A DNA stretch of 64,000 nt from Tamlana sp. I1. Its GTDB lineage: Bacteria > Bacteroidota > Bacteroidia > Flavobacteriales > Flavobacteriaceae. The position numbers and the translations under genes are program-made. Positions 785 to 38,241 of this stretch are shown in pieces; position 1 is the first letter of the stretch; each line of letters begins with the position of its first letter. The DNA lies in NCBI RefSeq assembly GCF_015355625.1, contig NZ_JACLAF010000013.1, forward strand, positions 1 to 64,000. The letters run 5' to 3'. The notes below the pieces were generated by a model that had not been told where the DNA came from, ran no database searches, and saw nothing but the letters and a program-made list of their open reading frames with translations.

Positions 785-845
785 CATTCAACCAAAAGCA
801 GGATCATTTATACTTAAAAACCAGATAACCCCATAAATTACGATA

Positions 846-870
846 CCTGTTTAGTTATTGTCTAGTCTAG
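846..870 (+). promoter_or_regulatory. candidate operator before the beta-agarase, shared with the 14.9-kb lipoprotein gene
   Basis: A 25-base segment containing TAGTTATTGTCTAGTC matches 23 of 25 bases of the minus-strand segment at 15046-15070. That segment lies upstream of the FG-GAP lipoprotein gene in the same orientation relative to the gene. Here it lies 60 bases before the agarase ATG. Shared regulation by one factor is inferred; the factor is not known. Confidence 0.5.
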
Positions 871-930
871 TTTGTTTTGTATTTAAAATGAAGGGAGTAA
901 TATTAAACTCCAAATTATTTTAAACACATT

Positions 931-2316
931 ATGAACAAAAAACAACTCTTAACTTACTTTTTATTACTTTCAATCTTTAACATTTTCGCACAAGATTGGG
1001 CTAATATCCCCGTTCCGGCTGATGCTGGCACCGACAAAAACTGGGAGCTTCAAACAACACTGTCAGACGACTTTAACTACACATTTAATCCAGCCACAAC
1101 AAAATCAAATTTTGGCAACAATAAATGGTATAACTTTTACCACAATGCCTGGGATGGTCCAGGAACAACCTATTGGAAATACAACCATGTTTGGGTAGAT
1201 GGATCGGATTTAATAATTACCTCATCACGATGGAATCAAACCGGTGAAGATATGCCAATTACCAATTCACCTAACAAAATGAATAAGCCTAATGACGGCA
1301 TAAGCGCAGGCTGCATAACCTCCAACAACAAAGTGCTTTACCCTGTTTTTGTTGAAGCTAGCGTAAGCGTTGCCAACATCGCTTTAGCATCCGATGTTTG
1401 GTTATTAAGCCCAGACGACACTCAAGAAATTGATATTATAGAATGCTATGGTGGTGCCGACAGCAACAACGGTTTTTTCGCTAAAGACATTCATTTAAGT
1501 CATCATTCATTTGTTCGCCAACCTTTTCAAGATTATCAACCTAGAGGAAAAAACACTTGGTACACGCGTAGCGACATCACGACCTCTTGGGGAGATTATT
1601 GTTGGAATAACGGCGCAAGAAAATATGTAGAAATTGGCGTGAACTGGATAAGCCCTGTTCATTTTGAATACTACATAGACGGCGAACTGGTTCGCGTACT
1701 TTACGATAAAGCAAGCGCCACAAAAAAAGGCAGCACTTGGTATTACACCTACCCTAGTATGACTAATGGCACTCTAGATTTTGATTCTAATGGTTACCAA
1801 ACCGAAAATCCATTTGCTACATCATCAAGCTATTCTTTTAGCACATTACAAAATGCTAGCAACACCTCATCAGTAAGTATAATAGACCCTTATAATTACC
1901 AAAACGGTCAAGGTTTTTCAAAAGAATTAGACATTATTATTAATGTAGAATCTCAAAACTGGCATGTTGCTGCAGGCAGAACACCTAACGATGCACTACT
2001 AAGTGACCCTAGCAAAAACACCATGAAGGTAGATTGGATACGTGTTTACAAACCAACTAGCAGCTTAAGCACAGAAACACCAACTCAATCTAATTCCATT
2101 CACATTTACCCAGTTCCAGCAAACCAAACATTACATATTAAAAGTGAACAAAAAATAGATGATATAAAAATATATAACACTTTAGGAGTCATAGTTTATC
2201 AGCAAACTACATCGGTAGAAACAATCCCTCTTGATCAATTAAATAATGGGGTTTATTTTATAAGCATAAACGCTAACAACAAAACAACCACCAAGCGTTT
2301 TGTTGTTCAACATTAA
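931..2316 (+). CDS. secreted GH16 beta-agarase with type IX secretion tail
   Basis: Predicted endo-acting glycoside hydrolase of family 16 that cleaves beta-1,4 links in agarose outside the cell. Residues 1-20 form a signal peptide ending FNIFA-Q. The mature protein opens DWANIPVPADAG, typical of Zobellia-type beta-agarases, and the catalytic EIDIIE motif gives nucleophile E166, D168 and acid/base E171. The HISHH-like stretch (HLSHHSF) and FQDYQPRG also match agarases. After the catalytic domain (about 22-375), residues 390-461 form a Por-type sorting domain (IYPVPANQTL ... GVYFISI) directing export by the type IX system. Beta-porphyranases are close relatives, so porphyran is the main alternative substrate. 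A shared upstream motif (846-870) and a convergent terminator frame the gene. Confidence 0.88.
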   Translation: MNKKQLLTYFLLLSIFNIFAQDWANIPVPADAGTDKNWELQTTLSDDFNYTFNPATTKSNFGNNKWYNFYHNAWDGPGTTYWKYNHVWVDGSDLIITSSRWNQTGEDMPITNSPNKMNKPNDGISAGCITSNNKVLYPVFVEASVSVANIALASDVWLLSPDDTQEIDIIECYGGADSNNGFFAKDIHLSHHSFVRQPFQDYQPRGKNTWYTRSDITTSWGDYCWNNGARKYVEIGVNWISPVHFEYYIDGELVRVLYDKASATKKGSTWYYTYPSMTNGTLDFDSNGYQTENPFATSSSYSFSTLQNASNTSSVSIIDPYNYQNGQGFSKELDIIINVESQNWHVAAGRTPNDALLSDPSKNTMKVDWIRVYKPTSSLSTETPTQSNSIHIYPVPANQTLHIKSEQKIDDIKIYNTLGVIVYQQTTSVETIPLDQLNNGVYFISINANNKTTTKRFVVQH

Positions 2317-2336
2317 ACGTATTTGATCAAAAAAGA

Positions 2337-2367
2337 ATCGGCACCTCATCCTATTATAGGTGCCGAT
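2337..2367. terminator. bidirectional rho-independent terminator
   Basis: Perfect 10-bp stem (ATCGGCACCT at 2337-2346, AGGTGCCGAT at 2358-2367) with an 11-base loop. A-rich and T/A-rich flanks lie on both sides. It separates the convergent agarase and IclR genes and can serve both. Confidence 0.85.
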
Positions 2368-2379
2368 TTATAAAAAATA

Positions 2380-3132
2380 TCAAACCCCTAAAACAGCATT
2401 AATTGAAGCTGCTGTTTTTTGTAATTGCTGAATAAAAAAGTCTCTAGATTTATTGTTTTCTGAAAGCGCTGTTAAACTAGAAACCGCTATTGAAGCATAA
2501 ATCCCAGAGTGCACATTACCAATGGTAATTGCAATATCGGTAACTCCTAGAGTAAGCTCACTTTCTTTAAGATCGTAGCCCTGTTTTTCTATCTGTTGAA
2601 GTGTTTGTAATAATTCTGTTTGTTGTTTAACAGTTAATGCGTTAAAATCTTCCGATTTTTTTAAAATCGCATCACGTTCTTTCTCATCAATATTTGCAAG
2701 TAAAACACGCCCAGAAGTCGTTTTAATTAAAGGAAACAAACTCCCTTCTTCCACCGAAAGTGATACTGGTCCCGGACTTTTTGTTTGAGACACGACCATA
2801 AGTTTATCATACTGTATAATACTCATATGACAAGCTTGATGGGTCGCATTCGATAGATCTTCCATAAACGGTTTTGCCACACGCAGCAAACCATCAATAG
2901 GACTGTGAGTATGGGATAAATGATACAGCTTAAGTGTTAAACTGTATTTTCCAGAAGTACTCTTACTTATATATCCTCGATCTTCAAGACAGGCCAACAT
3001 GCGATAAATCTCATTAGCTGTTTTGTCTAAACCTAAAGAAATTTCCATTTGAGACTGTGGTACAGACTTCTCGGATAAATATTCAATAATATCCAAGCCT
3101 TTTTCTAATGCGGGTGCTTTGTATTTACTCAT
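2380..3132 (-). CDS. IclR-family transcriptional regulator
   Basis: A 250-residue cytoplasmic regulator of normal IclR length. The N-terminal winged helix-turn-helix (about 5-70: ALEKGLDIIEYL, QSQMEISLGLDKTANEIYRML, RGYI) is followed by an effector-binding domain (about 75-248) with typical segments such as LPLIKTTSGRVLLA-like FPLIKTTSGRVLLAN and the closing ASIAVSS. IclR proteins usually sense small acids or sugar-derived metabolites. It is transcribed away from the GH2 gene across a 99-base gap with a perfect palindrome at 3195-3210, so it probably controls itself and the GH2/CoA operon. The effector is unknown; a product of the neighbouring pathway is the natural guess. Confidence 0.88.
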   Translation of the reverse strand: MSKYKAPALEKGLDIIEYLSEKSVPQSQMEISLGLDKTANEIYRMLACLEDRGYISKSTSGKYSLTLKLYHLSHTHSPIDGLLRVAKPFMEDLSNATHQACHMSIIQYDKLMVVSQTKSPGPVSLSVEEGSLFPLIKTTSGRVLLANIDEKERDAILKKSEDFNALTVKQQTELLQTLQQIEKQGYDLKESELTLGVTDIAITIGNVHSGIYASIAVSSLTALSENNKSRDFFIQQLQKTAASINAVLGV

Positions 3133-3194
3133 AAAGCAAAAATAAACATTTATATATAAAAATTTACTTCATATTTAAAATTCAAATATAAATA

Positions 3195-3210
3195 CATATA
3201 TTTGTATATG
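3195..3210. promoter_or_regulatory. candidate IclR operator overlapping a Bacteroidota -7 element
   Basis: CATATA-TTTG-TATATG is a perfect 6-bp inverted repeat in the IclR/GH2 divergent gap. It contains TATATTTG (3197-3204), which fits the Bacteroidota -7 consensus TAnnTTTG for the GH2 direction. A second inverted repeat, ATATTT-7-AAATAT, lies at 3171-3189. Binding by the adjacent IclR protein is inferred. Confidence 0.5.
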
Positions 3211-3231
3211 AAAAATTAAAGTAATATCAAC

Positions 3232-5769
3232 ATGACTAAATTAAATCTCAAATTAATAGCCTTAACAGCCCTAGTGTTATCCGTAACATCTAGCGTGTTT
3301 GCTCAACCCAACACCACACTTGCACTTGAAGACTCAAACCAACAAGTTATTGATTTAAGCGGTATGCGTTGGCGTTTTAAAATGATGGCGCCAGGAGAAG
3401 GCGTTAAAAAAGGCCTGCATAAGTTACCTGCGGAAGACATTGAAACCTTAGTATGGAACAACGCCAAAGTACCTGGCGATGTGTACACCGATCTTTGGAA
3501 AGTAGGCATTATTGAAGACCCTCATTTTGGAAGAAACAGTGTAAAAGCACAATGGGTACAACAATACGAATGGTGGTACGCATTACAATTTAGCGTTACC
3601 GAAGATGTAGAAAACCAATTAGTAGACCTTGTTTTTGAAGGCGTAGATTATGCCTGCGAGGTATGGCTTAACGGTCATTATTTAGGAAAACATGAAGGGG
3701 TATTTTCTAAATTTTCTTTTGATGTTGCCAATTTTCTTCGCATCCATAAATACGATTTCCTTAAAGGCCGAAACATGCTCGTGGTTAAATTAGACACACC
3801 GCCGCAAGTAAACGCTTTTGTTGCCGGAAAAAAAACACCTTGGTTTGGCGATTATTGGAGAGACATCACCCCTATTGGTATTGTACGCCCTGTTAAATTA
3901 GTACGTACCGGAAAAATCCGCTTTAAAGATGTGTATGCTAACAATACCATTAATAAAGATGGATCGGCGGATGTAAATCTTGAAATCACCGTAGAAAACA
4001 CCAATAAAGTTGCTAAAGAATTTTCATTTGAAGCGGCCCTTAACGGGAAAAACTTTAAGATGAAAGAGCAAAAAGTAAGCTTTAAGAAAACCATTCAACC
4101 GGGAACTCATAAAGTCATTCAGAAAATACATTTAAAAGAAGCTAAATTATGGTGGCCATGGGATTTAGGTGACCAAAACTTATACACAGCAAAAATTGCG
4201 GTTAAAGATGGTAAATTAAACCAAGATGTTAACGAAACCACATTTGGTATTCGCGAAGTCACTTCTAAATGGAATCCTGGTTTTGTTAAAGATGTCGATG
4301 TTACCTTCCCGAGATCTACTTATATAAACGGTAAGTTTCACTTCATCCGTTCGGCATGTTGGGGTGGTCCTCCAAATATTTTTGTAGGACGTACCGAAAC
4401 AAGCGATTATAAAGAGTTAATTCGTTTGGCAAAAGAAATGAATATGAACAATATTAGAATCTTCGGATGGCACCCACCAGAAGTTCCAGAATTTTACCAG
4501 TACTGTGATGAAATGGGTATGACTGTTTGGCAAGACATGATTCCTTTAGGAACTGGAAATATTCCTTCAGACGAGAAAAACCTAGCTGAAATATTTAACG
4601 AAGGCGTTAAAGTAGTTGTAGAACGCAGAAATCATCCGTCGTTAATCATGATGGAAGGTGGTGAAGAAATGATGTTCCGTACCCGTGACCCTAAATTTGG
4701 TCGTGAATTCTTAGAGCGTTTAGGCGATTCACTTCAAGCTTATGTCGATTTACCATATGTTCCAGATTCTCCTATGACCGATCATGTTGGGCAACAAGCA
4801 GGTTTCAAACCGAAAGAAGCCGTTCATGCCTTACGTTACTTTTATGATATGGGTAAATGGTTGCACGAAGATTGGTACCAAACCAAAGCAGATGGCTACC
4901 CTATTGTTCCAGAATTTGCAATTACCTCAGTGCCTTCCGTAGAAAGTTTAAAGAAATTTATTCCTGAAGAAGAATTATGGACTCCTGGTTTAAGTTGGGG
5001 ACACCATTGGGCAGATTTAACCCGTTTACGCATGCAAAACTGGGATGTTTTTGGTAGTGAAATGAAAGGTTCTTTAGAAGAATTTGTAAATGCTACCCAA
5101 GATGCACAAGGGATTATTTTCCAAAATGGTATTGAGCATTTCCGTCGTGATAAACCAAGTTTAAGTGGTATTGCGCTTTGTCATTACATCACTTACGGAC
5201 CCGATATGAAATGGGCTATTGTTGATAATTACAGAAAACCTAAAAATTCATACTACTTTGTTCAAAAAGCGTATCAGCCGCTTTTAGTGAATTTTGAATT
5301 TAAAAAACGCCGTTGGGATACTAAGGAGCCTTTTGTTGGAAATATTTGGGTGATTAATGATTACTATAAATCATACGAAGATTGTACGGTGAAGTTTGAA
5401 ATGAAAGACGACTCTGGAAAAGTGATTGCTAACAAAACCTTCTCCATTGACAAGATTGAAGAAAACAGTGCGAAATCATTCTTCCCAATTAATGAAAAGG
5501 TTTTAAAATCGGTGAAATCTAAGTTTTTTGTGAACCTAGAATTAACCGACAAAAGCGGAAAAGTAATCTCTAAAAACGATTATTTCTTCCTAATTGGCGA
5601 TCAAAAAGAGGCCACAAAACATTTTAACGCTTGGAAAGAGGAACGTTTGAAAAACGAAAACGAAAATGGCGGATATGGTTCATACTACCACTTCTTCAAA
5701 GATTTTACAGGAGAAGACGGACAACGTTACGAGAGTCAAACCCAAATTCCAAGAGCATCAGGATTTTAA
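3232..5769 (+). CDS. secreted GH2 glycoside hydrolase (beta-mannosidase-like fold, substrate uncertain)
   Basis: An 845-residue exo-glycosidase with a signal peptide ending SVFAQ (1-25). The order is that of GH2: a jelly-roll sugar-binding domain (about 40-225: WRFKM, VPGDVYTDL, WWYALQF, LVFEGVDYACEVWLNGHYLG), an immunoglobulin-like domain (about 230-345), and a TIM barrel from about 350 (NNIRIFGWHPPE, CDEMGMTVWQD). The likely nucleophile is E561 in PEFAITSVPS and the likely acid/base is E479 in MMEGGEEM. The residue before the acid/base is Glu478, where GH2/GH-A enzymes almost always have Asn, so substrate recognition may be unusual. Beside an agarase, a beta-galactosidase-type role on agar or porphyran oligosaccharides is possible, but sequence alone does not settle it. 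Confidence 0.8.
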   Translation: MTKLNLKLIALTALVLSVTSSVFAQPNTTLALEDSNQQVIDLSGMRWRFKMMAPGEGVKKGLHKLPAEDIETLVWNNAKVPGDVYTDLWKVGIIEDPHFGRNSVKAQWVQQYEWWYALQFSVTEDVENQLVDLVFEGVDYACEVWLNGHYLGKHEGVFSKFSFDVANFLRIHKYDFLKGRNMLVVKLDTPPQVNAFVAGKKTPWFGDYWRDITPIGIVRPVKLVRTGKIRFKDVYANNTINKDGSADVNLEITVENTNKVAKEFSFEAALNGKNFKMKEQKVSFKKTIQPGTHKVIQKIHLKEAKLWWPWDLGDQNLYTAKIAVKDGKLNQDVNETTFGIREVTSKWNPGFVKDVDVTFPRSTYINGKFHFIRSACWGGPPNIFVGRTETSDYKELIRLAKEMNMNNIRIFGWHPPEVPEFYQYCDEMGMTVWQDMIPLGTGNIPSDEKNLAEIFNEGVKVVVERRNHPSLIMMEGGEEMMFRTRDPKFGREFLERLGDSLQAYVDLPYVPDSPMTDHVGQQAGFKPKEAVHALRYFYDMGKWLHEDWYQTKADGYPIVPEFAITSVPSVESLKKFIPEEELWTPGLSWGHHWADLTRLRMQNWDVFGSEMKGSLEEFVNATQDAQGIIFQNGIEHFRRDKPSLSGIALCHYITYGPDMKWAIVDNYRKPKNSYYFVQKAYQPLLVNFEFKKRRWDTKEPFVGNIWVINDYYKSYEDCTVKFEMKDDSGKVIANKTFSIDKIEENSAKSFFPINEKVLKSVKSKFFVNLELTDKSGKVISKNDYFFLIGDQKEATKHFNAWKEERLKNENENGGYGSYYHFFKDFTGEDGQRYESQTQIPRASGF

Positions 5770-5796
5770 CAACGACTAACTATTATTACTAATTGC

Positions 5797-5880
5797 AGAG
5801 ACTGTCTAAAAACAACACCCAAATCGAAACAACTACTTAGAAACTACCAATAAATTGGGTTTTTAGATGGTCTCTTTTTT
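5797..5880 (+). terminator. long imperfect inverted repeat with T-run between GH2 and the catabolic operon
   Basis: AGAGAC-TCTAAAAA-CCCAA (arm 5797-5822) pairs with TTGGGTTTTTAGA-GTCTCT (arm 5854-5876), and TTTTTT follows. It can act as a terminator or attenuator after the GH2 gene. The long arms and 31-base loop also resemble a small inverted-repeat (MITE-like) element. Confidence 0.55.
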
Positions 5881-5895
5881 ACTAGACTACGAATT

Positions 5896-7053
5896 ATGTC
5901 AGAAAAACATATAAAATTAAAAGGAATAACCTGGGACCACAGTCGTGGTTTCACATCGGCCGTTGCTACAGCACAACGTTTCCATGAATTAAATCCGAAT
6001 ATAGAAATCACCTGGGAAAAACGCTCGTTACAAGCTTTTGCAGACGAACCGATTGATACCCTAGCAAAACGGTATGATTTACTAATCATAGATCATCCAT
6101 GGGCAGGTTTTGCAGCTCGAACAGGGGTTATCATTCCGTTAAACGAACATTTACCGAAATCATTTTTAGACGATCAAGCCGCGAACTCGGTTGGGAAATC
6201 ACACGAAAGTTATTGTTTCGACGGGTATCAAAGTGCTTTAGCCATCGATGCCGCAACGCCCGTGGCAGCAAGCAGACCAGATTTATTAAACAAATTAGGA
6301 AAAACGCTACCAAAAACTTGGGCCGATTTAATCGCCTTAGCAAAGGACGGTTTGGTTGCTATTCCTGGGATTCCTCAGGATACTCTAATGAGTTTTTATA
6401 TGATTTGTTGCACGCATGGTGAAGATGTAGCCCTAACAAAAGACTATTTTGTTTCGGAAGACATCGGGCTACAAGCCTTAGATATTTTAAGAGATTTAGG
6501 ACAATATATTGATGCTTCTTGCTACGACATGAACCCCATTAAGGTTTACGAAGCCATGACACGCAGCGATAAATTTGCCTACTCCCCTTTTGCTTACGGC
6601 TACACCAACTACTCAAAACGCGGCTATGCTACTCATGTTTTAAAATTCCATGACACCGTTACTCTAGAAGGTCAGCATTTAATTACCACTTTAGGTGGAA
6701 CAGGTTTAGCCATTTCATCAAATTCAAAACATAAAGAAACCGCTTTAGCTTACGCCGAATATGTAGCATCTCCTAAAACCCAAAAAACCGTGTTCTTTGA
6801 TTATGGCGGACAACCAGGACACAGAGAGGCTTGGTTAGATACCACAAATAATTTCAATGCTTTAGATTATTTTAAAGACACGCTACCCACTTTAGATAGA
6901 GCCTTTTTAAGACCACGTTACCACGGACACATGTATTTTCAGGATAATGCAGGCGCTCCAATTCGTGAGTTTATGAAAAACGGTGGCCATGCCAAATCGC
7001 TTTTAGATAGCTTGAATACATTGTATCTTAAATCATTAAAGAAAACAACCTAA
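5896..7053 (+). CDS. solute-binding-protein fold (ABC family 1), no signal peptide
   Basis: A 385-residue protein resembling extracellular solute-binding proteins of sugar ABC transporters: AQRFHELNPNIEITWEKR near the start, DLLIIDHPWAG around 62-72, PKTWADLIALAK around 138-149, and GGTGLAISSNSKHKETALAYAEY around 256-278. The N-terminus (MSEKHIKLKGITWDHSRG) is hydrophilic with neither signal peptide nor lipobox. No ABC permease or ATPase gene lies nearby. It therefore probably stays in the cytoplasm and may bind, sense or channel a ligand for the next four genes, whose start lies 10 bases downstream. A missed upstream start is unlikely, because the preceding DNA is a hairpin. Confidence 0.7.
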   Translation: MSEKHIKLKGITWDHSRGFTSAVATAQRFHELNPNIEITWEKRSLQAFADEPIDTLAKRYDLLIIDHPWAGFAARTGVIIPLNEHLPKSFLDDQAANSVGKSHESYCFDGYQSALAIDAATPVAASRPDLLNKLGKTLPKTWADLIALAKDGLVAIPGIPQDTLMSFYMICCTHGEDVALTKDYFVSEDIGLQALDILRDLGQYIDASCYDMNPIKVYEAMTRSDKFAYSPFAYGYTNYSKRGYATHVLKFHDTVTLEGQHLITTLGGTGLAISSNSKHKETALAYAEYVASPKTQKTVFFDYGGQPGHREAWLDTTNNFNALDYFKDTLPTLDRAFLRPRYHGHMYFQDNAGAPIREFMKNGGHAKSLLDSLNTLYLKSLKKTT

Positions 7054-7063
7054 TCATTTATAA

Positions 7064-8209
7064 ATGTTACCATTAGAAGGCATTACCGTATTAGAGTTTG
7101 CGCAATTCATGGCAGGGCCATCGGCTGGATTAAAAATGGCCGATTTAGGTGCGCGCGTGATTAAAATTGAACGTCCAGGATCTGGTGAAGCGGGCCGACA
7201 AATTGCCCTTAAAAATATTTTTATTGATGAAAGCTCTATGGTGTTTCATACGGCCAATCGAAATAAACAATCGTATGCAGCCAATTTAAAAGACCCAGAC
7301 GATTTAGAAAAGGTAAAAAAACTCATTGCGCAAGCCGATGTAATGACCCATAATTTCCGACCAGGTGTTATGGAAAAAATTGGTTTAGATTATGAAACTG
7401 TAGCTGCTATAAATCCTAAAATGGTGTACGGTGTGGTTTCTGGATATGGTCCCGTTGGCCCTTGGGCTACCAAACCTGGCCAAGATTTACTTATTCAGTC
7501 CTTGTCGGGCTTTGTTAATTTATCGGGAAACGAAGCCGATGAACCCACAGCAACAGGACTAGCCACTTCTGATATTTTTACAGGAGTACATTTAGTTCAA
7601 GGTATTTTGGCTGCACTTATTGCCAGAAACCGCACTGGTAAAGGCTCTAAAGTTGAAGTGAGTTTATTGGAATCCACTTTAGACATCCAATTTGAACTGT
7701 TAACTACTTTCTTAAATGATGGCGAAATGCTACCAAAAAGAGCAAAAAAAGGCAATGCCCACGTGTATCTAGAGGCGCCTTATGGCATTTATCAAACCAA
7801 AGATGGTTACATCAGTATTGCGTTAACACCTTTAGATGCTCTGGCAAAAGCGATGAACTTGCATCTTCCTGATGCTTTTCAAAATCCGAAAGTATGGTAT
7901 GAAAAACGCGATGACATTATGGCTTTTTTACAAGAACAACTCATTAAAGAAAGCTCAGCACATTGGTTATCTATTTTTGAAGCATTAGATTTTAGAGTTT
8001 CAGAAGTATTTGATTATAAAACATTATTGAATCATGAAGGCTACAAAATCCTTCAAATGGATCAAGAGGTTGAAACTTCCGATGGTATTTCAATGAAAAC
8101 CACGCGCTGCCCCATCCGAATTGATGGTAACCGAATTTTCAATAAAAAATCGGCACCAAAAGTGGGTGAAAATAATGCCTTAATAGAAAAAGAATTTAAT
8201 CTAAGTTAA
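7064..8209 (+). CDS. CaiB/BaiF-type (class III) CoA-transferase, first of a tandem pair
   Basis: A 381-residue member of the formyl-CoA transferase family, which moves CoA between carboxylic acids through an enzyme-bound aspartyl-CoA anhydride. Characteristic segments are LEFAQFMAGPSAGLKMADLGARVIKIE (split motif, residues 10-36), NRNKQSYAANLKD, THNFRPGVMEKIGLDY, SGYGPVGPW and the catalytic Asp170 in ATSDIFTG, matching Asp169 of formyl-CoA transferase. It ends 2 bases before the next gene, a second full-length paralogue, so the two may form a hetero-oligomer or use different acids. The acid substrate cannot be read from the sequence. Confidence 0.88.
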   Translation: MLPLEGITVLEFAQFMAGPSAGLKMADLGARVIKIERPGSGEAGRQIALKNIFIDESSMVFHTANRNKQSYAANLKDPDDLEKVKKLIAQADVMTHNFRPGVMEKIGLDYETVAAINPKMVYGVVSGYGPVGPWATKPGQDLLIQSLSGFVNLSGNEADEPTATGLATSDIFTGVHLVQGILAALIARNRTGKGSKVEVSLLESTLDIQFELLTTFLNDGEMLPKRAKKGNAHVYLEAPYGIYQTKDGYISIALTPLDALAKAMNLHLPDAFQNPKVWYEKRDDIMAFLQEQLIKESSAHWLSIFEALDFRVSEVFDYKTLLNHEGYKILQMDQEVETSDGISMKTTRCPIRIDGNRIFNKKSAPKVGENNALIEKEFNLS

Positions 8210-8211
8210 TC

Positions 8212-9357
8212 ATGAAAAAACCATTAGAAGGCATCTTAGTTGTAGACTTTAGTCAGTATTTATCTGGCCCTTCAGCGAGTTTAAGATTGGCTGATTTAGG
8301 TGCTAGAGTCATTAAAATTGAAAAACCCGAAACGGGAGATTTAGGTCGTGGTTTGTATTTTTCAAATGTGGTGATGAACGGCGCTTCATCGATGTTTCAT
8401 GCCATCAACAGAAATAAACAAAGTTATGCGGCCAATATGAAAGCGACCGATGAACGTGAAAAAGTCTATCAATTAATCAGCAAGGCCGATGTTTTAATTC
8501 ATAATTTCAGACCAGGCGTTGTAGATAAACTAGGCATTGATTTCGAAACCATAAAATCTATTAATCCTAAAATCGTTTATGCTGAATTATCAGGTTATGG
8601 CAAAGAAGGCATTTGGAAAGATAAACCAGGACTGGATTTATTATTGCAATCGCTTTCAGGATTAACACAGCTAAATGGAAACGATGGCGCAGGCCCTATC
8701 CCTATTGGTTTGGCTGTAGTTGATATTTTATCTGGTGCCCATTTAGCACAAGGTATTTTAGCCTGTTTGTACAGAAAAGAAACCACGGGTGAAGGCGGTC
8801 ACGTGGAAGTAAGCATGCTTGAATCGGCTTTAGAATACCAGTTTGAATCCATTACCTGTTATTTTAGAGACGGCGGGCAACCAACCATCCGACCAAAAAG
8901 CAATTCCGCACATGCCTATTTAGGCGCACCTTACGGGGTTTACGCGACTAAAAATGGCGCTATGGCGTTGGCCATGGGATCTATTCCTTTTATTGGCGGT
9001 TTAATAGGTTGTGAAGCTTTATCAAAATATGAAACGCCCGAAAGTTGGTTTAATCAAAGGGATGAGATTAAAGACATCCTTGCCAAACACCTAGCTACGA
9101 AAGACACGAAAACGTGGTTAGCCGTTTTAGAGCCTGCCGATATTTGGTGTGCCGAAATCATGGATTGGAAAACACTCATGGATCAAGACGCCTTTAAAAT
9201 TTTAGAGATGATTCAGGAAGTTAACATGGCTGACGGCTACACCTACAAAACGACACGTTGCCCGATTCAAATTAATGGTGCCTGGTTAACCTCGGAAATT
9301 GGCAGTCCCGTTTTAGGCGAACACAATGAGAAAATCAATACAGAACTAACATCGTAA
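8212..9357 (+). CDS. CaiB/BaiF-type (class III) CoA-transferase, second of a tandem pair
   Basis: 381 residues, the same length as the preceding gene and clearly its paralogue (shared RNKQSYAAN, HNFRPGV, GYG, TTRCPI). The catalytic aspartate is Asp171 in AVVDILSG. Both copies keep the active-site Asp, so this is not a decayed duplicate. The start ATG lies 2 bases after the upstream stop, which implies translational coupling. The pair is followed by a crotonase and an aldehyde dehydrogenase, so the CoA ester made here probably goes to hydration/dehydration. Substrate unknown. Confidence 0.88.
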   Translation: MKKPLEGILVVDFSQYLSGPSASLRLADLGARVIKIEKPETGDLGRGLYFSNVVMNGASSMFHAINRNKQSYAANMKATDEREKVYQLISKADVLIHNFRPGVVDKLGIDFETIKSINPKIVYAELSGYGKEGIWKDKPGLDLLLQSLSGLTQLNGNDGAGPIPIGLAVVDILSGAHLAQGILACLYRKETTGEGGHVEVSMLESALEYQFESITCYFRDGGQPTIRPKSNSAHAYLGAPYGVYATKNGAMALAMGSIPFIGGLIGCEALSKYETPESWFNQRDEIKDILAKHLATKDTKTWLAVLEPADIWCAEIMDWKTLMDQDAFKILEMIQEVNMADGYTYKTTRCPIQINGAWLTSEIGSPVLGEHNEKINTELTS

Positions 9358-9369
9358 TAACAGAATTTT

Positions 9370-10152
9370 ATGAGTGATTTATCAACCAACATACTAGTCA
9401 AAAAAGCAGCAGGCGTTGCTACCATTAGCTTAAACAGGCCTAAAGCGAATAGTTATTACAAAGACTTTTTAGAATTAATTAGTCAAGCTGTAAAAGAAGC
9501 TAGCGCAGACGATGCTATCAAAGTTATTTTAATCAATAGCACTTCCGAAAAGTTTTTCTGCGCTGGAGCTGATATTAAAATCTTCAGTAGCAATACCACC
9601 GAGCAAAATGCCGAAATGGTAAAAGCGGCTCGCGAAGTTTCCGAAGCCATTACCTCAAGCAGTAAAATTGTTATTGCAGCCGTTAGCGGTCATGTTTTAG
9701 GCGGCGGATTAGAAATGATTATGGCTTGCGACATCCGTCTTGCTTCCGAAGGCAACTATTTAATTGGCTTACCCGAAGTGAAATTAGGCTTAATGCCTGG
9801 AAACGGCGGCACACCAAGACTCATCGATTTAATTGGAGCGAGCCGAGCCATGGAATTGTTGGTAACGGGAAATAACATATCACCACAAAAAGCTTATGAT
9901 TATGGCCTATTTAATCAATTATTCCCTGCCGATGCCTTTGAATTAAGCGTAACGCATTATGTAAATGAATTAGCTCAAGGCGCAGGACAAGCCATGGCGG
10001 CCATTAAACATTATGTGCAAAAACATAAAGGCATGAACTTACAAGAATCGTTAGATTACGAAACCACATCGGTTAACGCCTTGTACGATACGCATGATGC
10101 CAAAGAAGGTTTTTTAGCCTTTGTAGAAAAGCGTACACCAAAATTTAATTAA
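9370..10152 (+). CDS. enoyl-CoA hydratase/isomerase (crotonase) family protein
   Basis: A 260-residue soluble crotonase-fold enzyme. The oxyanion-hole segments are FCAGADIK (63-70) and HVLGGGLEM (108-116). Both acid/base glutamates of true hydratases are present, Glu115 in GGGLEM and Glu136 in LPEVKLGLMPGNGG, so hydration or dehydration of a CoA ester is plausible rather than only isomerisation. It lies 12 bases after the second CoA-transferase and 19 before the aldehyde dehydrogenase in the same operon. This supports a short pathway in which an acid is made into a CoA ester and then hydrated or dehydrated. Confidence 0.87.
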   Translation: MSDLSTNILVKKAAGVATISLNRPKANSYYKDFLELISQAVKEASADDAIKVILINSTSEKFFCAGADIKIFSSNTTEQNAEMVKAAREVSEAITSSSKIVIAAVSGHVLGGGLEMIMACDIRLASEGNYLIGLPEVKLGLMPGNGGTPRLIDLIGASRAMELLVTGNNISPQKAYDYGLFNQLFPADAFELSVTHYVNELAQGAGQAMAAIKHYVQKHKGMNLQESLDYETTSVNALYDTHDAKEGFLAFVEKRTPKFN

Positions 10153-10171
10153 CTAATAAAACATACTAATA

Positions 10172-11623
10172 ATGGCAAAAGAAATTAAACATTACCCCTG
10201 TTTCATCAATGGTGAGTGGTTAGATTCCTCAAAAAGAGCACTTATTGAAGTAGAAAACCCAGCAAACAATGACGTTTTTGCAACGGTTACCGCATGTACC
10301 AAAGAAGACGTGCAATATGCCTTAGAAACCTCAGAAAAAGCGCAATTTGGATGGCATTTAACACCTGCTCAAACGAGAGCCAATTACATTTATGCCATTT
10401 GTGATCGTTTGAAAGCAGAACGGGAACATTTCGCCAAATTATTAGTTATGGAGCAAGGAAAAACTTATGCTGAAGCACTTGGTGAAGTTGATGACACGAT
10501 TCGATATATGACCTATTCCGCGGAAGCGGGACGACGTATTCAAGGGGCTATTTTTCCAACTGAAAATGCTAACGAGCGTTTGGAAATCCATAAAGTTCCT
10601 TATGGCGTTACCGTGGCGTTGTGTGCCTTTAATTATCCTTTAGCTTTAATCGGACGAAAATTGGGTCCGGCTTTGGTTACAGGAAATACCATTATTTTAA
10701 AACCACATGAGTTAACACCTGTTACCGCTTCAGAATTTTGCCGATTGGTAGAAGACGCAGGCCTTCCTAAAGGCGTTGTTAATATGGTAGCGACACAAAA
10801 TGCACAAACCGCTTCTTTATTAGTTGAAAGTCCGATTACCAAATTAATCAGTTTAACCGGAAGCACCAATGCGGGACGCGCCATGTATCGCGCTGCTGCG
10901 GATAACATTACAGGTTTAATCTTAGAACTAGGTGGTAAAGCCCCATTTATTGTTTTAGATGATGCGGATATCGATAAGGCTGTTGAAGCTGCTGCCATTT
11001 CTAGATATGCCAACTGCGGACAAGTATGTATTTGCAATGAAATGGTGATGGTTGACGAAAAAATAGCTGATGAATTCACCGAAAAACTCATTAAACGTGT
11101 AGCACAAATTAAAACGGGTAACCCTTTTGATGCATCGGTAAATATGGGTCCCAATGTAAGCTCGCAAGGTTTAGCCCGTGTGCAAGATTTAGTAAATCAA
11201 GATATTGCCAATGGTGCCGAACTGGTTATGGGAGGCGGCCGACCAAATGGTGCTGAATTTGAAAAAGGCAATTGGTTTGCTCCAACCATTCTTACCAATG
11301 TTAAAAACGGCGATGCCACAACAAAACACGAATTATTCGCGCCTGTCCTGCCCATCATTAAAGTAAATGGTTTTGATGAAGCTATGGCTTATTCGAATGC
11401 CAGAGAAGAAGGTTTATCGGCATACTTATTTACCAATAACTATAAGATTCATCAAAAGGCCATTGATCAATTACAGGTGGGAACAATTTTCATCAACAAA
11501 CAAATTGTTGGCTATATTCAAGGCTATCATTCGGGGCATAAAACCTCGGGAATTGGTGGCGAAGATGGTATTTATGGTATAGAACATCATTTACAAAAAC
11601 GCACGGTTTATTTGGAGTATTAA
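10172..11623 (+). CDS. NAD(P)-dependent aldehyde dehydrogenase, AldA (lactaldehyde/glycolaldehyde)-like
   Basis: A 483-residue cytoplasmic dehydrogenase of normal ALDH length. Key residues are visible: Asn154 (AFNYP), Glu252 (LELGGKAP) and the nucleophile Cys286 (CGQVCIC). The C-terminal part ([19 protein letters not shown], then [10 protein letters not shown]) is close to E. coli AldA, which oxidises L-lactaldehyde and glycolaldehyde. In agar-degrading bacteria a related ALDH oxidises 3,6-anhydro-L-galactose, so that role is an alternative given the agarase nearby, although no cycloisomerase gene is visible here. It is the last gene of the operon; a strong terminator follows. Confidence 0.88.
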
Positions 11624-11661
11624 AACCGTTTTCAATACCTCACGCTGAGAAATATAATTCA

Positions 11662-11701
11662 ATAAAAAACCTTATAGCATTTGTTACTATAAGGTTTTTT
11701 T
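11662..11701. terminator. strong rho-independent terminator at convergent gene ends
   Basis: AAAAAACCTTATAG pairs with CTATAAGGTTTTTT around a short loop, with A- and T-runs on either side, so it can work in both directions. It closes the CoA operon and may also stop the opposing lipoprotein gene. Confidence 0.85.
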
Positions 11702-11780
11702 ATTGACCTGCAAAAGTCACTCAAAACTTTTAGCAAGGCAAAAACATTAAAAACAAAAGCGCGTTTTTGCTCTGAAACTT

Positions 11781-14700
11781 TTATGGTTTAATATTTAAAG
11801 GATAAACCTGATCATTATACATGATGCCATCGCTGGATGTAAAGGTTGCACGCAACATATAGAATTGACCTTCTGGCAAATCTTTTGTTGGTGTTAAACC
11901 TTTAAGAGAAAAGGTTTTCACAGCTTTACCAGACACTTTGTTAAGTGCAGTTTCATCAACCAAAACCACGTCTTTAATAGGCACCCATTCATTTTTAAAA
12001 TGACGCAACCATAAACGCACACCACCTTCATCGGCATTTATAACTTTTTGTCCAGACCCCGCGTAATATTCGGCTTCAACAGTAATGTTATCTCCGACAT
12101 TAAAGCTGTTGAATTTTTCTTTATTCAAAAGCTTAATAAAAGGTTTCACAAAAGGCTCAACCTTTATCATAGTATGAGCACTAACTTTAGGGTTTTCAGC
12201 CGAAGCTACAGTAATTTTAGTTTTGCCTGCTTTTAGAGCCTTTACCTTTCCTAAGTCATCAACTGTAGCTACTTCAGGATGACTACTTTCCCAAACTAAA
12301 TTTTGATTATCGGCGTATTTCGGATTTAATGTTGTTTCCAATTGCAAGGATTCATTCTCAAACAAAGTAACCTGCGCTTCAGATAAAACAATCGTTTCAA
12401 TAGGCTGCGCATACCAATCGACAATACTTATTTCTTTTGAAGCCTTTAAACCATTAGCCACACTAGTTGCTGTAATTGTCGTTTTCTCACCGATGTTCCC
12501 AACGGCTTCAACTACGCCATCTGTACCAACTTTTAAAACCTCCGGATTACTAGAAGCCCATTGCACCTCTTGATCGGCGTTTTTAGGTGAAGCTTTTATT
12601 ATTAATGGCATGGAAGTGCCTTTTCTTATTTCCGAAACGTCATCAGTTATAACCACCCCTTCTGGATCTAGTTTATTGGTATCGATTATGGCATTAGCCG
12701 CCTTATTATTGAACACAACCGTTTCGCCATTTCGCCATCTTACGGTTACGCTTTCTATTTTAGTTTCAGTCCCTAAACCAAAATGTACCATATTTAATAA
12801 ACTTTGAGAAAACACTTCGCCTGCCGAGCCTACGCGTTTACGGTATTCGTGATTTGCAGTCTTTACAATAACCTCAGCAGAAATGGCATCGATATTCGAT
12901 TTTGGCGCATAACCAACACGTACTAAAGCATAATTACCGCTACCCGGATTTTTATTCGCATACAAATACCACATACCGCCTTCACTACCATTTAGCAGGT
13001 CTAAACCACCATCTAAATCGAAGTCGAAAGCCTGTCCCATATCGCCATTTCCAGCATCACCAATAGCATTGGCGCCGTGCATGGTAACGGTTTCAAAAGC
13101 GCCATTCCCTGTGTTTAGCAACATATAATCGGAAGTTCTAGACCCAATAAAGCCCCAACGGTACACAAATATATCTTGGTAACTATCGTTGTTAAAATCT
13201 CCCACAGTAACCCCTAAAGAATTCCCTCCGGGCTGGATGTTATAAGCTTCAGAAACATCTGTAAACACCCCATTATCATTCCTAAGTAAAATATCCTGAA
13301 CATTTCTATTTTGAGGTACAAATTCGGGCATTACAGCTTCTACACCAGACAAACTAAATCGATACGACCAGAATAAATCGCCATTTCTAACCAAAGCTGC
13401 TTTCCATTTGTTATCGCCTATGGCTCCAATATAAAAACCATCAGCCGAAATATCTTTTGGCCAACCTTGAGCCGTTTTGCTATCAATTTCGAAATCTTGA
13501 CCCGAAGGTATTAGAGCTTCTTTTTTGTTTTCACCTAAAAAAATAGGATAGGTTTTTCCTCTATAATCGCCTTGCGCTAAGTAATAGTAGTTGTGAAGTT
13601 TAATTTTGTTGTCGCCAATAAACTCAAAAGCATCAACGCCTTTATAACCTCTGGTTTTAAGTGCCATTTCTTTATTTACAGGATCGCTGTCTAACGAGGG
13701 TGTTTCACCTTTTCCGCCTTCAAATTCTAGTCCGCGAGCTAAATACAAATCTAAATCGCCATCATTATCGATATCTACATCTGCAAGCGCCATAATTTGT
13801 TTGTATTCAGGAAGATCCTTTAGCATTTTAGCAGTAACCTCTGTAAAGGTGAAATCGCCATTACCTTTCCAAATAGACAATGGGCCGTATAAAATGATAT
13901 CATCAATGTGATCGCCATTAATATCGGTTATTAAAGCGCGCGAAGGATGTGCATCTTGAATTCCAGGCACATCTTTAAACTTAAAAGTACCATCGCCTAA
14001 ATTTTCATAATAGAAATGCTGTGGTTTTTCCTTTTTTAAGCCTTCTTCATTCACCAACATTAAATCTAAATCGCCATCCAAATCGTAATCTGACCAACGT
14101 GCACCTCTACCCCTAGCGCCACGGGTAATACCAACATCGCCTGTAAATCGAATAAAATTGGAATAATCATTTTTATAATAATTGGCAATGGAAGGATTTG
14201 CTCCATTCCCTCCACCTTGGGTAACGACTAAATCTAAATCGCCATCATTATCATAATCTCCAAGCGCAGTACCATGCAAATCGTGCATGTACCAACGGGC
14301 GAGATTTTGACTGTGTTTTGTTACTGTGCCATCGCCATTATTCCAATACAGTTTACTTGATTCTTGGTTGTGGTTGTTCACAATAAAATCGTAATAACCA
14401 TCTTGGTTAATATCTGCTATGGAAGGTCCGCCATATTTTATAGAATTCACACGATCTAATCCTGCTGCTTCACTGATGTCTGTAAACTTAGGAATCTCAA
14501 GGTTTCCAGCATCCTCTACAGTTATTTTATGAATGGTCATTTCGGCATCTCTAACCGAAAGTTTGAAATTTACGTCTCCCAATTCTTTAAATCCGATTAC
14601 AGCATTTACTTTTTGACGCCCAGTTTTTGAAACATCTAAATTGTCTAAAAGCAATGCCCCATCAGCAAATAAACTCAGGCTACCATAGGATTTATTATTA

Positions 14701-14912
14701 GTTAAATCGATAGTGATTTTTTTAACCTTACTCCCTTTAATTTCAGCATTAAAATTAAGTGGCTTTAAACTTTCTACAGGACTAGAATTACCGAGTATTT
14801 CATTAGTATTTGATTCCACCTTTACACAAGATTGAACCATTATAATGATATAAAGGCATAGGAATTTTAGAATTGTTTTACTTTTAGAATAATAAATTTT
14901 TTGTTGCATCAT
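11781..14912 (-). CDS. FG-GAP/VCBS-repeat surface lipoprotein with UnbV and two Big2 domains
   Basis: A 1043-residue lipoprotein (hydrophobic segment ending IIIMVQSC, Cys29). After an N-terminal beta region come many FG-GAP/VCBS repeats (about 140-700) with calcium-binding signatures such as DYDNDGDLDL, DYDLDGDLDL and DINGDHIDD, forming a predicted beta-propeller. An ASPIC/UnbV segment follows (VHFGLGTETKIESVTVRWRNG, about 720-745). Two Big2 immunoglobulin-like domains follow (IRKGTSMPLI ... VQWASSNPEVLKV; LFENESLQLE ... LVWESSHPEVATV), then a C-terminal beta domain. Such proteins are typically anchored at the cell surface and bind glycans or other surfaces; no catalytic motif is seen. The 15046-15070 motif it shares with the beta-agarase suggests co-expression. 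Confidence 0.8.
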   Translation of the reverse strand: MMQQKIYYSKSKTILKFLCLYIIIMVQSCVKVESNTNEILGNSSPVESLKPLNFNAEIKGSKVKKITIDLTNNKSYGSLSLFADGALLLDNLDVSKTGRQKVNAVIGFKELGDVNFKLSVRDAEMTIHKITVEDAGNLEIPKFTDISEAAGLDRVNSIKYGGPSIADINQDGYYDFIVNNHNQESSKLYWNNGDGTVTKHSQNLARWYMHDLHGTALGDYDNDGDLDLVVTQGGGNGANPSIANYYKNDYSNFIRFTGDVGITRGARGRGARWSDYDLDGDLDLMLVNEEGLKKEKPQHFYYENLGDGTFKFKDVPGIQDAHPSRALITDINGDHIDDIILYGPLSIWKGNGDFTFTEVTAKMLKDLPEYKQIMALADVDIDNDGDLDLYLARGLEFEGGKGETPSLDSDPVNKEMALKTRGYKGVDAFEFIGDNKIKLHNYYYLAQGDYRGKTYPIFLGENKKEALIPSGQDFEIDSKTAQGWPKDISADGFYIGAIGDNKWKAALVRNGDLFWSYRFSLSGVEAVMPEFVPQNRNVQDILLRNDNGVFTDVSEAYNIQPGGNSLGVTVGDFNNDSYQDIFVYRWGFIGSRTSDYMLLNTGNGAFETVTMHGANAIGDAGNGDMGQAFDFDLDGGLDLLNGSEGGMWYLYANKNPGSGNYALVRVGYAPKSNIDAISAEVIVKTANHEYRKRVGSAGEVFSQSLLNMVHFGLGTETKIESVTVRWRNGETVVFNNKAANAIIDTNKLDPEGVVITDDVSEIRKGTSMPLIIKASPKNADQEVQWASSNPEVLKVGTDGVVEAVGNIGEKTTITATSVANGLKASKEISIVDWYAQPIETIVLSEAQVTLFENESLQLETTLNPKYADNQNLVWESSHPEVATVDDLGKVKALKAGKTKITVASAENPKVSAHTMIKVEPFVKPFIKLLNKEKFNSFNVGDNITVEAEYYAGSGQKVINADEGGVRLWLRHFKNEWVPIKDVVLVDETALNKVSGKAVKTFSLKGLTPTKDLPEGQFYMLRATFTSSDGIMYNDQVYPLNIKP

Positions 14913-15325: not shown

Positions 15326-18300
15326 ATGAGAAGAACATTTATTTTTTGTTTTTTATTAATATCCTTCACTATTTGGTCGCAAGAGCCAAACCAAGAGTTC
15401 CATTTTTTTAACATAAAAGAAGGCATACCTAAAGTAGGCATTTCAAATATTATTCAAGATCATTATGGTTTTATATGGATAAGCACCACCGGAACGGGCC
15501 TCTATAAATTTGATGGCATTGACTATATAAACTACAAACACAAATTAAACGACTCAACCTCGTTAAGTAGTAGCCGAATACAGCACTCTTTTATTGATAG
15601 CAAAAACAGACTTTGGTTTGGCACCGAAAACGGATTAAACTTATACCATAGAGATTTAGACCAGTTTAACCGAATTGTTCTAGACAGCACAAATATTAAT
15701 AATGAATTTATTTTAACTATTGAAGAAGACGAAACTGGCAACATTTTAATAGGAACAAATAACCTAGGAATGTTTAAAATTAATACAGAGACGTTAAAAG
15801 TTGATAAAATCTCAAACTCTACTTTTAGTGAAGATGGTACTCCATTAAATATTAACAGTATAAAGCATTCCAAGCAAGGAAAAACCTTTGTAGGCACAAA
15901 TTTAGGACTGAAAGAGCTAGACTTAATTAATAACAAGCTTATTCATACCAGATTACTTTCAAACAATAAAAATACATTTAACACCTCTATTGAAAGGCTC
16001 TTCTTGGATAGCGAACGTAATTTATGGATTGGTTCTAAAACCAATGAAGGGGTTTACAAATGCAAACTAAGCAACGACAGCAACAACCATATTATTGATG
16101 TGACCCATTTTAATTTCACGTCCAAAAAAATTATGGATTTTGATGAGCTAGCGGATGGCACCATAATTATTGGAACCGAAAACGATGGCCTCTTTCACAT
16201 TCAAGATAATGGACAAATCATAAAAAATTATCGCGCTAACAAATCCGAAGAAAATAGCATCCTTCACAATTCTATTTGGACGCTTTTTATTGATGACAGA
16301 GACCGACTCTGGTTAGGCTATTACAACAGTGGCGTAGCGGTAAGCGATAATCTTTATAACAAATTCATGAACATTAAAAGCCTGCCGAATAATGATAACT
16401 CATTAAAAATAGGCTCGGTTATGGGGATGATTAAAGAAAACACAAACAAACTCTGGGTTGCAACCGATGGTGGCGGCATTGATATTTACAATACTAAAAC
16501 AGCAAAAATAACCCACATAAACAGTATTGATAACAAGATTTATTCGGGATTAACATCGGATTATATTGAAACCATTTTTAAGGATTCCCATCAAAACATC
16601 TGGGCAGGTAGCTGGGATAGCGGTTTATTTTTTCTAAAAAAAGGCGACAAAAAATTTAAAAACTACTCCATAGAAAACACTTCGGGAGCATTAGCCTCTA
16701 ATACCATAATGAGTTTATCTGAAGATTCGAACGGCATCATCTGGATTGGCACTTATTTTCAAGGGCTTCATGCCTTCAACCCTAAAACAAAAGCTTTTAA
16801 ACAATATAATACGGAAACACTTGCTAGATTAGACATTACTAAGGTTTTAGTCGATTCTGAAGATTACATTTGGATAGGTACACCCCATGGGTTATTCAAA
16901 GTAAAAAAACAAAAAGACGAAAGTATTAAAGTCACTTCGTTTACATACGAAATGACAAAAGCCTACAACAATCCATCAAATGCTAATTATATTCTATCCA
17001 TTTATGAATCTACAAATAAAGACATTTGGATAGGTACAAGGGGCGCTGGTTTATGCAGATACAATAAAGCAACAAACACATTTACTTGGTTCAATAAATC
17101 TAACGGTTTAATGGAGGAAAATGTCGCTTCCATAATTGAAGACCATAGCAACCTATGGATAAGTGGTAATTCTGGGCTAACTAAATTTAATTTAGAAACC
17201 ATGAAATTTACCAATTACACTTCTAATGATGGCTTAGTTTCGAACGATTATAATTTTGATTCGGTTCTAAAAGATGATGATGGTATTATCTATTTTGGAA
17301 ACTTAAAAGGGGTCGATTTTTTTAACCCCAAGCATGTAAACACAAACACCAATCCGCCTTCCTTACGTTTAACAGAGTTAAAATTATTCAACAAAAAAGT
17401 AATCCCTGGAACTCATAATGCGCCTTTAAACAAAGTTATTTCAGAAACTGATCATATCACTTTAAACGATAACCAAACCGTATTTACAATAGAATACACA
17501 GGCATTAATTACACCAGACCCGAAAAAAACAATTATGCCTACTATCTGGAAGGTTATGAAAACACCTGGAATTATGTTGACCAACAACGCAGTGCCACCT
17601 ATACTAATTTAGATCATGGCGATTACACATTCAAGCTCATGGCTTCTAATAATGATGGCGTTTGGAACCAAAAACCTTTAGAATTAAAAATATCTATATT
17701 ACCACCTTGGTGGAAAACAAAATGGGCGCTTTTTTCATATTTAACGCTGTTTTTCGTTGGAATTTATATTTTAAATCGCTTAACACTAAACAGAATTAAA
17801 GAAAAGGAATTGCTTCGTGTGGAGCGTTTAAGTCAAAATCAAAATGATGAATTAAATCAAAAGAAAATTCAATTCTTCACAAACATTTCGCATGAATTTA
17901 GAACACCGCTAACATTAATTATAAATCCGCTTAAAGATATTATAAACGACAGCGACCTTAATTTACCTCAAAAAATAAAAAACAAACACGCTATTATTTA
18001 TAAGAATACCGACAAGCTTTATAGGTTAATTAATGAATTAATGGACTTAAGAAAACTTGAAGTCAACAAAATGAATGTTAGAGCTCAAAAAATAAATTTA
18101 ATTGATTTCACTAAAAATATTGCAGAATACTTTCAAGAAGAAGCTACAAGGAAAAACATTTATTTAAGCGTAGACGCCGATGTGCCCGATTTAAGCGTTT
18201 GGGCAGATGCCAAAATGCTTGATAAAATTCTTTTCAACTTATTATCAAACGCCATTAAAATAACCCCAGAAGGCGGTACCATAGCTATTGAATTATCCGC

Positions 18301-23386: not shown

Positions 23387-23403
23387 TTAAAAAAATGAGA
23401 CAA

Positions 23404-25116: not shown

Positions 25117-25144
25117 TATTATATAAAACTTAAACTTGAAAAAT

Positions 25145-25933: not shown

Positions 25934-25969
25934 TATAAATTAGTTTAGTTTGTTTCAATTTGTTTGTTT

Positions 25970-26007
25970 AGAGGGTTTTTATGTGGTAATAAAAACCCTC
26001 TTTTTTT
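25970..26007 (+). terminator. rho-independent terminator inside the PUL, after the SGBP gene
   Basis: AGAGGGTTTTT (25970-25980) pairs with AAAAACCCTCT (25991-26001) around a 10-base loop, followed by a T-run. It lies between the SusCD/SGBP genes and the GH16 gene. Some transcripts probably stop here while others read through, lowering enzyme output relative to SusCD. Confidence 0.85.
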
Positions 26008-26042
26008 CACATTTGAAATATAACCTTTTTAGTCAACTGAAT

Positions 26043-27224: not shown

Positions 27225-27257
27225 TAGAAAAGCCTATTAAATTAAAAATAATATAAG

Positions 27258-29561: not shown

Positions 29562-29589
29562 CATAACTTATAGAATTAGTGTTGATTTG

Positions 29590-38236: not shown

Positions 38237-38241
38237 TACAT

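Follow-up and report, generated by a model that had tools for sequence, protein, structure and literature searches.

A candidate operon for dehydrating sugar acids as CoA thioesters, found beside agar genes in Tamlana sp. I1

The window analysed here comprises 64,000 nucleotides of Tamlana sp. I1 (contig NZ_JACLAF010000013.1, positions 1 to 64,000), and the element in question is an operon at 5896–11623, with five plus-strand open reading frames (ORFs) separated by gaps of 10, 2, 12 and 19 bases (Table 1). These encode a protein with the fold of a solute-binding protein (SBP), two class III CoA-transferases of the CaiB type, a crotonase (enoyl-CoA hydratase, ECH) and an aldehyde dehydrogenase (ALDH). 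I propose, with a probability of about 0.5, that the operon encodes a route in which a sugar acid, here derived from agar or porphyran, would be dehydrated as a CoA thioester. The original prediction had described five genes with gaps of 2–19 bases, opposite an IclR regulator and downstream of a GH2 gene, as a CoA-dependent catabolic operon tied to agar degradation; coordinates and Pfam matches agree with the former, and gene context supports the latter. The operon is genuine, and the five-gene grouping is not due to chance, since ORF typing in other genomes recovered crotonase and ALDH without a Gfo/Idh gene in 33 of the 80 relative loci typed (the best 80 of 234 confirmed), from Bacteroidota, Gammaproteobacteria and the alphaproteobacterium Hirschia.

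The reactions, the substrate and the role of the SBP that I infer from the observed genes, catalytic residues, context and lack of a leader would be as follows. The ALDH would oxidise a sugar of the 3,6-anhydro-L-galactose type, released from agar or porphyran with its aldehyde group free, to the corresponding aldonic acid. The paired CoA-transferases would load CoA onto this acid, with the leaderless sugar-binding-fold protein as the substrate-holding partner; the CoA donor would be the CoA ester of the product, and hence no ATP would be spent. CoA would acidify C2, the crotonase would take the hydrogen from C2 and the oxygen from C3 (a ring ether or a 3-hydroxyl), and the enol would tautomerise to a 2-keto-3-deoxy-acyl-CoA. 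The transferase would then free the 2-keto-3-deoxy acid by passing CoA to the next acid, and general downstream enzymes would complete the breakdown. The module would take the role that sugar-acid dehydratases or the cycloisomerase have elsewhere. The sequence from aldehyde to acid, CoA ester and (de)hydration was already part of the original prediction, and still fits best.

No signal peptide or other leader is visible in any of 23 diverse SBP sequences, judged by eye rather than with a predictor, and the N-terminus lies no more than about 12 residues from a conserved G-x-(T/A)-W motif. In a wider set of 81 sequences, some N-termini came out longer with mechanically assigned ORF starts, which I regard as overlong; 132 of the 385 positions are at least 97% conserved in this set. 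The predicted SBP model (pLDDT 93.8) has a fold matching CUT1 sugar-binding proteins, for example SmoF and MalE3. It therefore has the sugar-binding fold of an importer component, without the export signal and without linked permeases, as no ABC permease gene was found in the operon (ORFs and Pfam, 341–14912). A CoA-transferase lies within 300 bp of the SBP in 92 of 98 loci. The exceptions are L017, with no CoA-transferase in the locus and two on the same contig, ∼11 kb off by coordinates; L031, L042, L044 and L047, where the distance is 370–548 bp by ORFs and 433–611 bp by tblastn; and L124, where a crotonase sits between the two. Six plasmid loci have ABC permeases, and in these a separate binding protein is annotated beside the permeases. 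The SBP is thus probably a cytosolic protein, associated with the CoA-transferases rather than with a transporter.

Both CoA-transferases belong to class III, by their CoA_transf_3 domain and by the catalytic Asp, which, assigned via the aligned motif, is present in 73 of 73 CoA-transferase 1 and 72 of 72 CoA-transferase 2 proteins; that of CoA-transferase 2 aligns with an Asp of solved family members. Since the two are fused into a single protein in seven Hymenobacter loci, with their order kept, they probably work as a pair. A predicted structure of this natural CaiB1-CaiB2 fusion reached a pLDDT of 43 (seven sequences), and was not used.

The two catalytic Glu residues of the crotonase are conserved in 41 of 41 proteins, and Cys286 and Glu252 of the ALDH in 39 of 39. 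The best solved relatives of the window ALDH are 6j75 (430 bits), which I take to be a 3,6-anhydro-L-galactose dehydrogenase, and 3k2w (423 bits). That the window enzyme is itself the anhydrogalactose dehydrogenase was rejected, as a far closer relative of 6j75 (754 bits) is encoded on another contig of the host, C11; the two host ALDHs are 46–47% identical, and by this comparison the window enzyme is related to, not orthologous with, the 6j75-like one. The same stretch of C11 encodes a GH2 relative, a zinc-dependent alcohol dehydrogenase (Zn-ADH), a short-chain dehydrogenase (SDR), an enolase-superfamily protein, a RhaT-like carrier and a GH117-like protein; sulfatases, a GH3, an epimerase and a SusC/D pair were recognised there by eye only. 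I take the enolase-superfamily protein to be the cycloisomerase of the anhydrogalactose route, whose later steps proceed through 2-keto-3-deoxy-galactonate. The C11 cluster likely represents the host's standard 3,6-anhydro-L-galactose genes, and the window operon, in which Pfam finds no cycloisomerase, therefore seems to be an addition to the apparent main route, not its replacement.

The relatives occur in two versions. Typing by ORFs, with a cut-off of 150 aa that hides many MaoC genes, gave 33 loci of type A (ECH and ALDH), 41 of type B (Gfo/Idh) and 5 of mixed type, the 1 remaining locus having ECH without ALDH or Gfo; typing by tblastn gave 33 with ECH and ALDH, 31 with MaoC and Gfo, 7 with Gfo and neither hydratase (L035, L036, L060 and L085, which are cut short, and L034, L039 and L061, which are not) and 9 other mixtures. 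In addition, type B loci usually encode a second SBP-fold protein and a carrier (RhaT-like or MFS), often also a Zn-ADH and an SDR, and lie near GH29 fucosidases in marine genomes and near GH78/GH106 rhamnosidases in Hymenobacter. Most version B loci carry this second SBP-fold protein (L057:13439–14674 and its relatives), which likewise has no leader by eye, ahead of their Gfo/Idh gene. The three type labels need 9 changes on the SBP tree, against a mean of 31.6 for shuffled labels (8 unlabelled rows are uncounted, and the plasmid rows are long-branched). Because of these 9 changes, the tree indicates that the oxidase/hydratase pair is one that has been swapped several times around an SBP-CaiB core. 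The notion that the versions exclude each other held only in part, with the version B Gfo/Idh (E ≤ 1e-90) in 12 of 44 genomes, four of which also carry a type A locus (G070, G077, G081 and G090); at the same threshold it was not found in the host genome.

Seven blastp queries, which may miss remote members and did not extend to IlvD-type dehydratases, found no enolase-like ORF in 77 of the 80 loci; the exceptions are L016 and L080, which hold the cycloisomerase itself, and L077 and L080, which hold another enolase-type gene. The version B reference proteins share 70% (Zn-ADH) and 86% (SDR) identity with their C11 counterparts in the host, which suggests that the C11 route and the version B modules have a common 2-keto-3-deoxy downstream product. 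MaoC enzymes act on D-3-hydroxyacyl-CoA, and crotonases on L-3-hydroxyacyl-CoA. L-rhamnonate, L-fuconate and L-galactonate show the D configuration at C3, in agreement with the MaoC of version B. The ALDH of version A would call for a sugar with a free aldehyde group, such as anhydrogalactose.

The cycloisomerase is present in all 38 genomes of the first list (40 loci, of which L029 and L049 fell outside the search), with best identities of 52–99%, and, at E ≤ 1e-100, in 22 of the 38 genomes of the second (40 loci). Arranged by locus type, this corresponds to 31 of 31 searchable type A genomes, 5 of 5 mixed ones, the genome of the untyped locus (L020) and 25 of 41 type B loci; it was not found at E ≤ 1e-100 in 12 Hymenobacter, one Pedobacter and one Pontibacter genome, nor for L062 and L074. 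In a class sample of 395 genomes it occurs in 7; five of these lack the SBP, and none of the five has the CoA-transferase (E ≤ 1e-60). Of the 38 first-list genomes, 37 encode a dehydrogenase closely related to that of C11 (identity of 53% or more), the exception, G080, having only one of the window type (50% identity). The idea that the operon replaces the cycloisomerase was rejected on its presence in the host and in every searchable type A genome. A tie to porphyran through the P450 demethylase was not decisive, with a P450 in 30 of 40 genomes, including 4 of the 5 cycloisomerase genomes without an SBP.

These counts bear on a rival reading that I consider doubtful, namely that the operon duplicates the cycloisomerase route, providing a parallel way to degrade plain 3,6-anhydro-L-galactose. 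The relationship of the window ALDH to 6j75 and the cycloisomerase of all type A genomes searched are in its favour, but the same genome holds a complete-looking standard cluster, and such redundancy across many lineages would be odd. As the host seems to have the standard enzymes too, a modified anhydrogalactose (for example the 2-O-methyl ether, which is a guess) or another agar or porphyran sugar is the likelier substrate. My guess is that a 2-O-methylated anhydrogalactose would explain both the second dehydrogenase and the ring-opening route; a literature search on this compound found no title on the question.

Distant relatives of the module are found within sugar gene clusters. These come from Bacteroidota, Proteobacteria and Streptomyces and contain a mutarotase, a lactonase, an SDR or an FAH hydrolase, and several of them are without a recognisable sugar-acid dehydratase. 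One of them, L113, holds an L-rhamnose mutarotase, two MaoC genes, the SBP, CaiB1, CaiB2, an Amidohydro_2 protein (lactonase-type), RhaT, Gfo/Idh, an SDR and an FAH hydrolase. No dehydratase was recognised in it, SBP-CaiB-CaiB-MaoC being present, and I take it to be a non-phosphorylating rhamnose/fucose route with its dehydratase missing. The Variovorax, Streptomyces and Sinorhizobium M103 loci include an SDR, an aldose epimerase, a CoA-transferase, the SBP and an ECH, with an additional FAH hydrolase in the first two. In S. meliloti (L093), one CoA-transferase is annotated beside the SBP, and no sugar-oxidation gene lies nearby among those listed in an incomplete table.

Another order of reactions, which I find unlikely, would have the CoA-transferases activate an acid that the crotonase then hydrates and cleaves, in the manner of hydroxycinnamoyl-CoA hydratase-lyase, with the ALDH acting last, on the released aldehyde. 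This would match the gene order (CoA-transferases, crotonase, ALDH) and the retention of both Glu residues; however, the ECH-type loci L122, L123 and L125 have an SDR and an aldose epimerase and no ALDH listed in the stretch shown, and for this reason the ALDH does not appear to be needed for the crotonase step. That the operon is an ordinary dicarboxylate, carnitine-like or fatty-acid CoA pathway, near agar genes by accident, is very improbable. The CoA-transferases do match succinate-glutarate, oxalate, mesaconate and carnitine CoA-transferases at the family level, but far under the curated cut-offs (222.7 versus 750 and 94.6 versus 413 bits, for example, among the carnitine, oxalate and succinate-glutarate equivalogs), neither protein reaching any such cut-off among the models listed, and sugar genes surround most loci examined. 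Relatives located mainly beside carnitine or fatty-acid genes, which the original prediction had named as counting against it, were not seen; they are near agar, porphyran, fucoside or rhamnoside genes or sugar transporters. This sugar context applies to most loci, the departures being the plasmid locus L119, with aromatic/acyl-CoA genes, and L121 and L124, with no clear sugar-oxidation genes beside the SBP/CoA-transferase pair. Least probable is the lactaldehyde/lactate (or glycolate) pathway from a deoxy sugar first suggested for this operon: the ALDH falls in the AldA-like group (NCBIfam PRK10090, 445 bits, under the cut-off of 500), but 6j75 and 3k2w are nearer relatives of it than E. coli AldA (337 bits), and the operon shows no recognisable aldolase or fucose/rhamnose isomerase set, nor anything else pointing that way.

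For the CoA-thioester dehydration route I count the conserved catalytic residues, the adjacency of SBP and CoA-transferase, the co-occurrence of type A loci with the cycloisomerase, the gene set of L113, the ECH loci with an SDR and an aldose epimerase, the similarity of the Zn-ADH and SDR of C11 to those of version B, the 77 of 80 loci without an enolase-like ORF, and the lack of the CoA-transferase in the five cycloisomerase genomes that have no SBP. Several points weigh against it. The relative loci were chosen by similarity to the window and are mutually related, and their counts are not independent. Sixteen of the 41 type B loci are in genomes without the cycloisomerase (E ≤ 1e-100), and in the class sample the SBP (E ≤ 1e-60) occurs in 9 of 395 genomes, only 2 of which have the cycloisomerase, the SBPs of the other seven showing 48–56% identity. 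As far as these searches indicate, the agar link holds for type A loci, not for the SBP family. The module is dispensable for plain anhydrogalactose, the host and all searched type A genomes having the cycloisomerase. The C3 arrangement of anhydro-L-galactonate, also D, is not that expected for a crotonase. Finally, 5 of 18 distant or plasmid loci (L117–L120 and L125) contain an enolase-type gene, and L120 also has UxaA-type genes.

Beyond the window, I tentatively suggest that a cytosolic sugar-binding protein may have been co-opted as a functional subunit of class III CoA-transferases, in a system that, across Bacteroidota, Proteobacteria and Actinomycetota, would carry sugar acids as CoA thioesters, dehydrated by crotonase or MaoC according to the stereochemistry of the sugar. 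The original picture of an agar-linked operon stands in its tie to agar; it was incomplete as to the separate C11 cluster, the probably cytosolic SBP, and a module that extends far wider than agar.

Table 1. The operon and adjacent features, in window coordinates.
Feature	Position	Strand	Details
SBP-fold protein (leaderless)	5896–7053	+	385 aa; SBP_bac_1 (4.5e-15)/SBP_bac_8, Pfam
Class III CoA-transferase 1 (CaiB/FRC family)	7064–8209	+	381 aa; CoA_transf_3 5e-94; catalytic Asp170
Class III CoA-transferase 2	8212–9357	+	381 aa; CoA_transf_3 1.1e-92; catalytic Asp171
Crotonase/enoyl-CoA hydratase	9370–10152	+	260 aa; ECH_1 1.1e-56; catalytic Glu 115, 136
Aldehyde dehydrogenase	10172–11623	+	483 aa; Aldedh 7.4e-145; Cys286, Glu252
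IclR-family regulator	2380–3132	-	IclR_C 6.2e-30, HTH_IclR 5.7e-8
GH2-family glycosidase	3232–5769	+	Glyco_hydro_2_N2 1.1e-28, Glyco_hydro_2 1.5e-15; N-terminal leader by eye
IclR-GH2 intergenic region	3133–3231	.	imperfect AT-rich palindrome near 3180–3207, possible operator
GH16-like protein with type IX secretion system (T9SS) tail	931–2316		Pfam: T9SS tail only; GH16-like motifs by eye

The IclR gene, divergent from the GH2 gene and the operon, encodes a probable regulator, and members of its cluster were found in 51 loci. A script scan of the region between the IclR and GH2 genes, for which no control was run, found palindrome arms ATTCAAATATA / TATATTTGTAT of 11 bases with 1 mismatch, a candidate operator that could also be a chance AT-rich match. 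The GH2 protein reaches no specific NCBIfam cut-off. The motifs QEIDIIE and VDWIRVYKP of the 931–2316 protein resemble GH16 by eye, and this is probably the neighbouring "agarase" of the original prediction. Compared with T. agarivorans JW-26 (locus L013), the GH2, SBP and ALDH proteins are 97%, 98% and 99% identical. The IclR protein is only 57% identical to its counterpart there, its closest relative being that of Aquimarina (65%). The GH16-like gene next to it is different as well, which hints that the upstream genes were exchanged.

Downstream, 11781–14912 encodes an FG-GAP/UnbV_ASPIC protein with Big_2 domains, whose cluster (c28) recurs in several ECH-ALDH loci. The region 15326–32414, with a hybrid two-component regulator, a TonB receptor, SusD, a GH16 and two GH3 genes, resembles what I take to be a beta-glucan (laminarin-type) utilisation locus. 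Further features are a large FG-GAP/ASPIC-UnbV protein with DUF6851, a vanadium-chloroperoxidase-like domain and a T9SS-type tail (32503–36516); a HipA-like protein, type I restriction-modification genes and an Abi_2 protein (36761–46670); a metal-resistance region with two P-type ATPases and CusB/HlyD-type and outer-membrane efflux proteins (51817–63961); and a type ISP C-terminal fragment (341–784).

Sugars are described as being broken down either by phosphorylation or by dehydrating the sugar acids directly. The component families of the operon are known, while their combination and the proposed chemistry appear to be new: no description of such an operon was found in the literature searched, most subscription journals being beyond its reach. 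The published text drawn on consists of passages of PMC5698469, PMC5613140 and PMC10033563; the main text of the Zobellia expression paper does not mention IclR, enoyl, hydratase or transferase. The passages describe an agar-induced Zobellia cluster, ZGAL_4657–4669, with ahgA (GH117) and an orthologue of the Vibrio L-sugar dehydrogenase, ZGAL_4659, and assign DauA-D to the D-sugar, 3,6-anhydro-D-galactose (PMC5698469). Deletion mutants of Zobellia have also been made (PMC5698469). If the proposal is true, a CoA-thioester route would link the catabolism of sugars with acyl-CoA chemistry, would explain sugar gene clusters seemingly without a dehydratase, and would give a role to a conserved group annotated "extracellular solute-binding protein" that is apparently not extracellular. 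For marine carbon cycling, it would be a pointer to the way bacteria deal with rarer sugars of red algae, L-galactose or methylated anhydrogalactose among them.

Four known systems invite comparison. The canonical 3,6-anhydrogalactose pathway (Vibrio EJY3; Zobellia DauA-D) has in common with the window operon a related ALDH and an agar context, but it is CoA-free and uses an enolase-type cycloisomerase, which the operon lacks and the host's C11 cluster seems to supply. Sugar-binding proteins of CUT1 ABC importers (SmoF, MalE3, the trehalose/maltose-binding protein) have the fold of the window SBP (TM ∼0.8), which differs in having no leader by eye, no permease in its operon and very high conservation. 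With known class III CoA-transferases (FRC, YfdE, SUGCT, benzylsuccinate CoA-transferase), the window pair has the family and the catalytic Asp in common; in contrast, it reaches no substrate model, is linked to an SBP, and consists of two paralogues. The non-phosphorylating L-rhamnose/L-fucose pathway consists of a dehydrogenase, a lactonase, a sugar-acid dehydratase, an SDR and an FAH hydrolase. L113 parallels it in its mutarotase, Gfo/Idh, lactonase-type amidohydrolase, SDR and FAH hydrolase, but has SBP-CaiB-CaiB-MaoC in the place of the dehydratase, and the window operon has an ALDH and a crotonase instead.

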